The translations under genes were made by a program, and so were the position numbers. Below the pieces are notes generated by a model. It was not told the DNA's origin, did no database searches, and was given only the letters and a program-made list of their open reading frames with translations. Positions 26,399 through 32,622 of a stretch of 64,000 bases of DNA are shown here, one piece after another. Numbering within the stretch: the stretch's first letter is position 1; every line of letters starts with the position of its first letter. Source of the DNA: Natrinema sp. HArc-T2 (GTDB lineage Archaea; Halobacteriota; Halobacteria; Halobacteriales; Natrialbaceae); NCBI RefSeq assembly GCF_041821085.1, contig NZ_JBGUAZ010000001.1:620001-684000 (forward strand), in the 5' to 3' direction.

Positions 26399-27742
26399 AT
26401 GACCGGTGCAGATCCCGTAACTGTCGGGGTATTGAGTCTTCATACGAGCAAGGAAACGAAAGCAATTCTCAACGCCGTCGAGGATCTCGGACACGACACT
26501 GAGTGGCTTCGCGCGGAAAACACGTCGATCAGCGTCACCGACGGCAGTCCCGTTCTCGATCCCGAGGTCGACGTGATCGCAAACCGGATGTTGCTCTCGA
26601 ATACCGAACAGCCCGCCGAGGAACTGGGTCTCGCGAACACGTTCTCCCAGCTGGTGCCGACGCTCAACGAGCCGGATTCGGTGCTGACCGCGATCCACAA
26701 GCTCTCGACGGCGACCGCACTCGCGGGGAACGACGTCCGGACGCCCGATGTCACACTTGCGCTAAGCGGCGATCAATTGAATGCCGCACGGAGTCGGTAC
26801 GGTGAGGAGGCGGTCTACAAGACGGCGATCGGCACCCACGGCGGCGGGACGTGGAAGGTCGGCCCCGACGATCCGATCAATGCCAAGGTCGGCAACCGGT
26901 ATGCGTTCCTGCAGGAACTGGTCGATCAGGAAGACGTCCGCCACCGCGATCTGCGCGTCTACGTCGTCGGCGGCGAGGTCGTCGCCGCGATGTATCGCTA
27001 CGCGCCGGACAACGATTGGCGAACCAACGTCGCACTCGGCGGCTCCGTCGAAAACGCGACCGACGACCTCCCCGAGGAGGCTGCCGAGATGGCCCAGCGC
27101 GCAGCTGACATCGTCGATCTCGACTACGCCGGTGTCGACCTCGTCGAGGGCGACGACGGCTGGTACGTCCTCGAGGTAAACCCCACCGCCGGCTTCAAGG
27201 GGCTCTACGAGGCGACACAGGTCAGCCCCGCACCCTACATCGCCAAACTGGCGATCGAACGTGCCGGCGGCGAGGTCGACGACGGTCGCGTGCGAGACCT
27301 CTCGAACGTTCTCGACGACTCCCGGCCGACGGCCCAGCCGACGGAAGCGATCGCACAGGACACCGAACCAGCCGTGATCGGCTACACCGAGGAGGTCGTC
27401 CTCTCTGGCACGAGCGGGTCGAAATCGGTACTGGCCAAATCCGACACCGGCGCGACGCGGACGAGCATCGACACGAGCCTCGCCGCCGACATCGGTGCCG
27501 GACCGATCAAATCCATCACCCGGATCCGCTCCGGCAGCAGCAAGCAGGCCAAGAGCCGACCGGTTGTCGACGTCGTCGTCGGCGTCGGCGGTAACCAACA
27601 CACCGTCACGGCAAGCGTCGAGGATCGCGGTCACATGGACTATCCCGTCCTGCTTGGTCGAGATATCCTCGAAAACTATCAAGTAGATGTTAGCCGACGC
27701 ATCGACAGCGACGTGGCCGATACCCCCGAAGAAGAAGAGTAA
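26399..27742 (+). CDS. RimK-type ATP-grasp ligase fused to retropepsin-like domain
   Basis: 447 residues. Residues 1 to about 290 are an ATP-grasp carboxylate-amine ligase: the glycine-rich loop IGTHGGGTWKVG binds phosphate and VLEVNPTAGFKGL carries the Glu and Asn metal ligands. Residues about 320-430 match the RimK-associated putative ATP-dependent zinc protease family, now seen as retropepsin-like: AKSDTGATRTSIDTS supplies the D-T-G-A motif. In many bacteria the two are separate neighbouring genes. Substrate unknown; a peptide-tail or osmolyte-related role is conjecture. Confidence 0.88.
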   Translation: MTGADPVTVGVLSLHTSKETKAILNAVEDLGHDTEWLRAENTSISVTDGSPVLDPEVDVIANRMLLSNTEQPAEELGLANTFSQLVPTLNEPDSVLTAIHKLSTATALAGNDVRTPDVTLALSGDQLNAARSRYGEEAVYKTAIGTHGGGTWKVGPDDPINAKVGNRYAFLQELVDQEDVRHRDLRVYVVGGEVVAAMYRYAPDNDWRTNVALGGSVENATDDLPEEAAEMAQRAADIVDLDYAGVDLVEGDDGWYVLEVNPTAGFKGLYEATQVSPAPYIAKLAIERAGGEVDDGRVRDLSNVLDDSRPTAQPTEAIAQDTEPAVIGYTEEVVLSGTSGSKSVLAKSDTGATRTSIDTSLAADIGAGPIKSITRIRSGSSKQAKSRPVVDVVVGVGGNQHTVTASVEDRGHMDYPVLLGRDILENYQVDVSRRIDSDVADTPEEEE

Positions 27743-30358
<2,616 letters not shown>

Positions 30359-30441: not shown

Positions 30442-31743
30442 TCACTCGCTGTGGATAACGACTTCGTCGTCCGTGATCTCTTTTATCCGTGACGCGTCGA
30501 CTGGATAGTCCTCGTCACCGTGACCGCCCCAGTCGAGGCGCGCTTTGAGTCGGTCCGTGAGACCTGGTTCCGGGTCGACGTACGCCGTCTGCCCTTCGAC
30601 CTCGGCGACCATGCCGATCTGTTGCCCCGAATCGTCGATCACGTCTTTGCCCTGCTCGTCCTGTGAGAGCGAGATCGACGCCGGTTCGCTTGCCTCGTCC
30701 GCCGTTCCCGTGTCGGTTCCGGCGTCGACCGTTGGGCCGGTAGATTCGGCCTCCATTCCGCCGGCCGGTTCGGCCTCGACCCCGCCGACTTCCATCTCGC
30801 CGTACTCCTCGACCTCGATGATCTCGCCTTCGATCACCTCGCTGGCGACAACCTCGGACTCGAGCAGTTCAGTCTCCTCGAGCGTGTATCGCATCTGTAC
30901 CTGCTCGTCCAGTTCCTCTTCGACCGTGCGGCGCTCGATCAGTTCGCTTCGGACCGTGTCACCCTCGGTCCGCTGGCTCTGGATCACTTCCCGTTCGATC
31001 ACTTGATCGGTCGTCACGTCCGAGCGGACGACGTCGCTCTCGAGGATTGATCGCTGGACGCTCTCGAGTTCGATGTCCGTCTCGACCGCCTCGATCTCGT
31101 CGTGCTCGAGTTCCTCGTCCTGTTCGATATCGACGTCGACGACGCGGCTCTCGACGATGTAGCGTTCGATCTCCTCGATGGTTTCGAGGTAAGTCTCGTC
31201 GACGATCAGCTCGATGACGTCGTCGTCGATGAACTCGGTCTCGACGATCTCGCGACCGAGCAGCTCGGAGTCGACGATCTCCCGCTCGACCAGTTCGGTG
31301 TCGACCACTTCGCTCTCGATCGTGTCCCGTTCGACGATCTCCTGTTCGATTACCTGCGTCTCGACGATTTCGGTCGTCACCGTCTCGCCGCGTCGGAGCG
31401 AGTCCTCGAATTCGTCCCGGCCCAGATCGGCCCGCTCGAACGCCTGCTCGCGCTCGACGATCTCGAAAAAGCCCAGCCCCTCGCCGGCCGGTTCCTCCTC
31501 GTGATAGACGAACACGAGGTCCTCATCATCCAACGTGTTGCTGAACTCGTCCCACGAGTGCTCCTCGTGGTCCTCTCCGAGTTCGTCACGGCGGGCAAAC
31601 GAGTAGCCGTGGCCCTCGCGGTCCCGAACCGAAACCGGAACAGCATCGCGGGCCTCGGCCCACTCTCTGACCCGCTCGGAATCGGTTGTCATGTGTCGTT
31701 GTTCGGCCGTATCTGTCTCGGTCGAAGATGTGTCGTCTACCAT
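30442..31743 (-). CDS. pentad-repeat protein with C-terminal PRC-barrel-like domain
   Basis: 433 residues from the first ATG (31743); ATG 31692 (MTTDSERVREW) is an alternative. Residues 1 to about 120 form an acidic globular domain (GHGYSFARRDELGED). Residues about 124-313 are a five-residue repeat, consensus [STRQ]-[ED]-[VIL]-[VIL]-[ED], about 38 consecutive units, for example TEIVE TQVIE QEIVE. After a Gly/Glu-rich linker the last about 75 residues (GKDVIDDSGQQIGMVAEVEG) resemble a PRC-barrel. No signal peptide or membrane segment. I know of no characterised homologue; a beta-solenoid or elongated scaffold is likely. Divergent from the glycosylase gene. Confidence 0.8.
   Translation of the reverse strand: MVDDTSSTETDTAEQRHMTTDSERVREWAEARDAVPVSVRDREGHGYSFARRDELGEDHEEHSWDEFSNTLDDEDLVFVYHEEEPAGEGLGFFEIVEREQAFERADLGRDEFEDSLRRGETVTTEIVETQVIEQEIVERDTIESEVVDTELVEREIVDSELLGREIVETEFIDDDVIELIVDETYLETIEEIERYIVESRVVDVDIEQDEELEHDEIEAVETDIELESVQRSILESDVVRSDVTTDQVIEREVIQSQRTEGDTVRSELIERRTVEEELDEQVQMRYTLEETELLESEVVASEVIEGEIIEVEEYGEMEVGGVEAEPAGGMEAESTGPTVDAGTDTGTADEASEPASISLSQDEQGKDVIDDSGQQIGMVAEVEGQTAYVDPEPGLTDRLKARLDWGGHGDEDYPVDASRIKEITDDEVVIHSE
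30805..31374 (-). repeat. 15-nt period tandem repeat coding pentads
   Basis: Inside the preceding gene, DNA repeats with a 15-base period (units such as TCGACGATCTCG followed by varied codons on the plus strand), diverged between units, coding about 38 five-residue repeats. Confidence 0.75.
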
Positions 31744-32010
31744 CTCTTTTGGCGATGGAACCAACCTGTACTTCAGTCATCAGGGTCATCCCATCAATTT
31801 ACTGTCTCGTTTCTCGGGACCCCTTTCACGGCCTGAATTGTCGGGTGTGTAATAGCGTATTATCGGATCAGTCCAGTAATATCGACCGTATTCTTCAGAG
31901 GATAAGGTCTAATTATGGTTGTCTTGCCCACCAACCGTGTCTTCTCTATGTCAGTTATTAGTCAGTCGGGCAACACGCTTTTGCTCGCTCGAGCCTACCA
32001 CCCAGCGACG

Positions 32011-32622
32011 ATGGCCGACACCGACGCTGCTGCTCGTGACATCCCTGTGTCCGTTCTTCGGGACGACCCCGTAATGGCCGACGTGATTGATCGTCGCGAG
32101 CCACATCCGCTCGAGCCGGTAGAAAACGAGTTCGAACGCCTCTGCGTCTCGATTATCAACCAGCAGCTTTCGACGGCCAGCGCCGCGGCCGTCCGTGAGC
32201 GTGTCTTCGACGCCCTCGACGGGGTCGTCACTCCAGAGTCAGTACTCAGCGCGTCTCGAGACGCGCTCCGCGAGGCCGGCCTCTCGCGGACGAAAGTCGA
32301 CTACGTTGGCAACGCCGCTCGCACGTTTCGAGAGCGCGACCTTACACGTGCCGGACTCGTCGACCACACCAACGAGGAAGTGATCGCCGAACTCACCGAG
32401 GTCACAGGGATCGGCGAGTGGACCGCCAATATGTACTTGATTTTCGTCCTGCAGCGACCCGATGTCTTACCGCTCGGTGACCTCGCAATTCGACGGGGGA
32501 TCGAGGGGTTATACAACGACGGTGCGGAGTTGACGCGAGCCGAGATGCGTGAAATAGCCGAGCCGTGGCGACCCTATCGGAGCACCGCGACGCGGTACAT
32601 CTGGGCCGAGTACGAGGCCTGA
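32011..32622 (+). CDS. DNA-3-methyladenine glycosylase (AlkA-like, HhH-GPD)
   Basis: 203 residues from ATG 32011 (MADTDAAARDIP); the frame extends 32 codons upstream but without family sequence. Excises alkylated bases in base-excision repair. Helix-hairpin-helix LTEVTGIGEWTANMYL is followed by LQRPDVLPLGDLAIRRGI, whose Asp in LGDLA is the catalytic position. FERLCVSIINQQLSTASAAAV is the helical start of the family. Single gene, divergent from the pentad-repeat gene. Confidence 0.9.
   Translation: MADTDAAARDIPVSVLRDDPVMADVIDRREPHPLEPVENEFERLCVSIINQQLSTASAAAVRERVFDALDGVVTPESVLSASRDALREAGLSRTKVDYVGNAARTFRERDLTRAGLVDHTNEEVIAELTEVTGIGEWTANMYLIFVLQRPDVLPLGDLAIRRGIEGLYNDGAELTRAEMREIAEPWRPYRSTATRYIWAEYEA

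Follow-up and report, generated by a model that had tools for sequence, protein, structure and literature searches.

The question raised by this locus is what kind of protein carries the long series of acidic five-residue repeats encoded in the window (the whole stretch of 64,000 nucleotides analysed), and whether, as an earlier note had suggested, it represents a new solenoid class or an extreme variant of the pentapeptide repeats. The gene had been correctly placed at 30442-31743, but is read from the minus strand (31743-30442), where the ORF is intact; the plus-strand frame is interrupted by stops. It starts with ATG (MVDDTSS...) at a position common to the homologues and encodes 433 aa with a pI of 4.05, and the repeat domain is present in only one copy in the host genome. 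The limits proposed for the repeat, 30805-31374, translate to residues 313-124 of the protein and bound the repeat region well. The features of the gene and the two neighbouring genes are as follows.

30442-31743, minus strand: whole gene, 433 aa (intact ORF, shared start)
31444-31701, minus strand: N-terminal domain, residues 15-100, alpha/beta (tblastn matches; in 133/133 homologues)
31210-31389, minus strand: unbroken run of 12 pentads, residues 119-178 (register analysis)
31231-31341, minus strand: predicted strand A of hairpin 1, residues 135-171 (AlphaFold)
31219-31230, minus strand: predicted turn of hairpin 1, residues 172-175 (AlphaFold and insertion site)
31120-31218, minus strand: predicted strand B of hairpin 1, residues 176-208 (AlphaFold)
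30958-31119, minus strand: linker with two predicted short helices, residues 209-262 (AlphaFold; holds most small indels)
30883-30957, minus strand: predicted strand C of hairpin 2, residues 263-287 (AlphaFold, indel map)
30805-30870, minus strand: predicted strand D of hairpin 2, residues 292-313 (AlphaFold, indel map)
30673-30804, minus strand: acidic low-complexity linker, residues 314-357 (low model confidence; length varies)
30445-30672, minus strand: PRC-barrel-like C-terminal domain, residues 358-433 (sub-cut-off Pfam match and RimM fold match)
28217-30358, plus strand: catalase-peroxidase KatG, convergent neighbour kept in Natrialbaceae
31915-32622, plus strand: HhH-GPD DNA glycosylase, neighbour on the other side kept in Natrialbaceae, orientation varies

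When the gene was compared with its relatives, most substitutions were at third positions of the minus-strand codons, in the repeat as well as elsewhere. Hence, the gene is real and under selection and, as judged from these comparisons, purifying selection is acting at the level of the protein. An antisense ORF at 31102-31836 (plus strand, 244 aa) runs over the repeat; it is rich in D and L, has a period of five and looks like a pentapeptide-repeat protein. It was rejected as a gene, having no Pfam match and with the coding substitution pattern on the minus strand, and is likely to be a mirror of the sense codons by which automatic annotation could be misled.

The consensus [STRQ]-[ED]-[VIL]-[VIL]-[ED] was confirmed in the protein, and the pentad common to the 133 homologues reads [TRS]-[ED]-[VITL]-[VI]-[ED]. 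The periodicity is real: the autocorrelation of V/I/L/M at lag 5 over residues 116-315 is 0.44 (z = 6.3; maximum among 50,000 shuffles 0.35), and peaks at lag 5 and lag 10 are kept in homologues down to approximately 30 % identity. A Fourier test was weaker because of register shifts, the observed value lying slightly under the top of 20,000 shuffles. However, the number, exactness and continuity of the repeats had been overstated. Instead of approximately 38 exact and continuous repeats, the only unbroken run in a single register is formed by the 12 pentads of residues 119-178 (GETVT, TEIVE, TQVIE, QEIVE, RDTIE, SEVVD, TELVE, REIVD, SELLG, REIVE, TEFID and DDVIE). The figure of 38 is wrong because the register is lost after residue 178, beyond which the sequence consists of stretches without repeats and of shorter blocks set in different registers (approximately residues 194-208, 237-262 and 263-313), and the total, counted by hand, is about 25 pentads. 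The period of 15 claimed for the DNA is seen in the first block, where identity at lags of 15, 30 and 45 is 0.58, 0.59 and 0.56, respectively, against approximately 0.3-0.4 at other in-frame lags, but TRF reported only weak arrays, with a period of 30.

The description of the protein as acidic and salt-adapted was borne out, as the repeat region includes 34.5 % D/E and only 7.5 % K/R, in keeping with the low pI of the protein, together with 32.5 % V/I/L. Proline is absent from the repeat region and cysteine from the whole protein. The hydrophobic moment of the pentad blocks is maximal at 72 degrees per residue, i.e. at a period of five, and the idea of a 5/2 twisted strand was dropped because the maximum is not at 144 degrees. 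A coiled coil was also rejected, as the repeat blocks include neither predicted helix nor a periodicity of 3.5 or 3.6 residues.

All of the 133 distinct homologues are haloarchaeal, and the order N-terminal domain, repeat region, PRC-like domain is fixed, with the N-terminal domain in 133/133 and the C-terminal domain, and thus the full three-part set, in 132/133. Whole-genome searches showed relatives to be present in 117 of the 392 genomes sampled from the order (~30 %), and the full-length profile matched 105 of 292 genomes of the class, though some of these matches are to the C-terminal domain alone. A scan of the genomes of 84,980 species found 34 loci, all haloarchaeal, though it ran on one peptide pattern and distant relatives may therefore exist elsewhere. 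The nearest named relatives are in Haloterrigena sp. H1 and Natrinema species, and family members were labelled hypothetical only, wherever annotation was seen. The full-length gene was not found in six genomes of the same genus in which katG is present, and hence is dispensable within the genus. Sequence searches of the repeat against Pfam, NCBIfam and PDB chains found no significant match, so that by these searches the protein belongs neither to the pentapeptide-repeat family nor to any described repeat family, and literature searches found nothing on this protein family. On these sequence comparisons, it is best described as a real, new haloarchaeal protein family with one module of a known type at its end.

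The fold of the repeat region was predicted twice with AlphaFold, using 18 relatives in the alignment in run 1 and, in run 2, only the repeat region together with a diverse set of 38 relatives. Strands were predicted at residues 134-173, 176-208, 263-289 and 292-308 in run 1 and at 135-171, 176-208, 263-287 and 292-313 in run 2, with a turn near residues 172-176 common to both. In run 2 the block-mean pLDDT exceeds 90 around residues 154-183 and 274-283; overall confidence is moderate (pTM 0.54, mean pLDDT 69.8), and AlphaFold may over-extend beta structure where a sequence is repetitive. In place of the solenoid that had been proposed, both runs thus gave unbroken strands, approximately 20-40 residues in length, that are linked by single turns into long hairpins.

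Covariation was examined in a sample of ~65 effective sequences. Among 341 antiparallel bands the top one (z 4.0) is centred on a residue sum of 575, where hairpin 2 predicts 579, though several unexplained bands score nearly as high, and the band at sums 343-346 for hairpin 1 (347 expected) is near the top but not unique. AlphaFold and covariation are not independent because AlphaFold used part of the same sequences. Direct-coupling analysis of the 133 sequences was dominated by noise, and simple mutual information gave only weak signals.

The placement of insertions, which is independent of the structure program though the sequences are shared with it, points the same way. The earlier note had suggested looking for relatives with varied repeat numbers, but array length is constant in the 133 homologues, with no whole pentad gained or lost in strands A-D, and length varies instead by insertion where the hairpin is predicted to turn. 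Insertion cases numbered 93, of which 88 are in predicted loops (72 sites) and five within strands (122 sites), and 64 are at residue 175, which coincides with the predicted turn of hairpin 1. Insertions at this residue are found in 64/133 homologues and reach 79 aa, nearly all of the long ones being there, and small indels are mostly confined to the linker at residues 209-262.

A beta-solenoid of either hand with sides of five residues, resembling the pentapeptide repeats but built from an acidic x-E-V-V-E unit, would account for the exact period of five across 60 residues and for the moment maximum at 72 degrees, and a modest covariation signal at a spacing of 15 (z 2.4) was seen, though only with a reduced alphabet. 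With full residues there is none at spacings of 15 or 20, and neither the unbroken predicted strands with their single turns nor the fixed number of units in the 133 homologues is what a solenoid would lead one to expect. The adjacent hydrophobic residues (i, i+1) also misfit the inward i-2/i pattern, and PF00805 and PF13599 found no match in the protein or in the 18 and 38 family members scanned (0/56 member scans). We therefore regard a solenoid as unlikely and, on the models, a hairpin fold as considerably the likelier of the two.

The reading that we favour, and hold to be somewhat more probable than its converse given the predicted models, is that a beta-hairpin domain of a new, haloarchaeal type makes up the repeat region and serves as a rigid acidic spacer between the N-terminal domain and the PRC-like module. 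The region would consist of two long antiparallel hairpins with strands of approximately 37 and 33 residues and 25 and 22 residues, in which the x-E-V-V-E pentad would place valine/isoleucine pairs into the strands with acidic residues beside them, and these acidic flanks would keep the long sheet soluble at high intracellular salt. The resulting ribbon may hold the N-terminal domain and the C-terminal interaction module, the whole protein acting as a cytosolic adaptor or scaffold. A bolder version is more tentative and would not surprise us if wrong: an undescribed architecture would have evolved in haloarchaea, an acidic antiparallel beta-ribbon patterned in pentads and serving as a salt-stable substitute for the coiled-coil spacer, its longest strands having 37 residues and exceeding 10 nm when fully stretched, and its tip in some lineages carrying a CxxC redox or metal site.

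The two flanking domains differ in how far relatives could be traced. The N-terminal domain has no Pfam match, but tblastn matched it to small stand-alone proteins on Rhizobium/Sinorhizobium and haloarchaeal plasmids (E 5e-9 to 2e-7, 33-43 % identity), and one rhizobial copy lies near an isoaspartate methyltransferase gene. The C-terminal PRC-barrel named in the earlier note found weak but concordant support in a Pfam PF05239 match that falls below the cut-off (14.6 bits against 21.2; E 0.034) and a match to the RimM structure 2f1l (prob 0.82, with a low TM over the whole query). Weak PF05239 matches were seen in 2/18 family members, and the block-mean pLDDT of this domain in run 1 is mostly 74-90. 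Similar PRC-like C-terminal domains occur at many other haloarchaeal loci in varied contexts, apparently forming a sub-threshold PRC family. No signal peptide was apparent on inspection by eye. From the three-part architecture we infer an adaptor or spacer role.

A further hint at function is found in a subgroup. In 22/133 homologues a CxxC, usually REC-x-x-C, aligns at positions 166-169, in the strand immediately before the hairpin-1 turn and thus at the predicted tip, in proteins that are otherwise cysteine-poor; other homologues have a single cysteine at position 169, and the HArc-T2 protein lacks the motif. Two paralogues of the repeat protein are present in each of five genomes, several pairs consisting of one with the CxxC tip and one without, and in some Halorussus-type genomes a CxxC paralogue and a cysteine-free paralogue occur together. 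The motif suggests a redox or metal site in the CxxC-bearing subgroup.

Within Natrialbaceae, the gene almost always converges on katG and adjoins the HhH-GPD DNA glycosylase gene, but outside this family no neighbour is conserved past single genera. KatG was found in all of the near-complete genomes tested, Natrinema genomes without the repeat-protein gene among them, and as it is near universal its co-occurrence is uninformative. Hence, with katG also in gene-less Natrinema and the neighbourhood unconserved outside Natrialbaceae, the link to oxidative or general stress is weak and should be taken as a hint only. Also in the window, a RimK-like ATP-grasp domain is fused to a C-terminal putative zinc/aspartyl protease-like domain at 26399-27742 (plus strand; PF08443 and PF05618).

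Bacterial DUF2382 proteins such as YsnF/AvaK have a PRC-barrel alongside a charged, beta-rich region and are associated with stress, and the haloarchaeal protein could be a diverged counterpart that shares their fold and general stress role. The PRC-like partner of like kind, the charged strand-rich sequence and the stress-type neighbouring genes would all fit, but PF09557 matched 0/38 repeat-domain homologues (E≤5) and 0/18 full-length proteins (E≤1), and was absent from the 61 and 295 archaeal genomes searched while two control genomes were positive. The domain order and the consensus also differ, and we consider this relationship doubtful. Very improbable is the proposal that the region is an acidic low-complexity, largely disordered, salt-dependent tether whose beta prediction is an artefact of V/I content: the composition is of low complexity and the pLDDT of model 1 is below 50 across part of residues 105-133, but G119, E128, E133, S144, E198 and S199 are conserved at ≥95 % in the homologue alignment, V/I/L make up nearly a third of the region, the core pLDDT exceeds 90, and the dominance of third-position substitutions indicates purifying selection on the protein. 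Neither of the outcomes that the earlier note had listed as contrary to its reading was found, there being no match to a known repeat family and no confident prediction of coiled coil or disorder.

A Foldseek search of the models against the PDB and viral structures found nothing at E <0.001; the top matches, gasdermin, MAC/perforin and BPI/TULIP (all E >0.005, TM ≤0.24 for the repeat model), share only long antiparallel strands, a generic likeness that does not imply homology. The small rhizobial hypothetical proteins (e.g. WP_064806504.1) align to the N-terminal domain over approximately 85 residues at 35-38 % identity and stand alone, without repeat or PRC-like parts. The likeness to PRC-barrel proteins (PF05239; RimM) is limited to the C-terminal ~75 residues and does not extend to the repeat, and the YsnF/AvaK proteins (PF09557) are set apart by the Pfam-model searches together with domain order and consensus.

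The pentapeptide-repeat proteins share with this family a period of five with hydrophobic positions and beta structure. They are defined by at least eight contiguous five-residue repeats and form a right-handed quadrilateral beta-helix with four repeats per coil (PMC8145042). The 12 contiguous pentads here are enough in number for that definition, but the consensus is another, an adjacent hydrophobic pair replacing AXLXX or A[DN]LXX, and in place of a four-sided coil the moderate-confidence model predicts antiparallel hairpins, with a fixed number of units and no i/i+20 covariation. The family should therefore not be filed under pentapeptide repeats, as consensus, Pfam match and predicted fold all differ. 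If the hairpin reading is true, a protein present in ~30 % of the sampled genomes of the order, and labelled hypothetical wherever annotation was seen, would gain a name and a testable fold, and its pentads would represent a second period-five sequence code, one that gives very long soluble beta-ribbons in near-saturated salt and is distinct from the pentapeptide-repeat solenoid.
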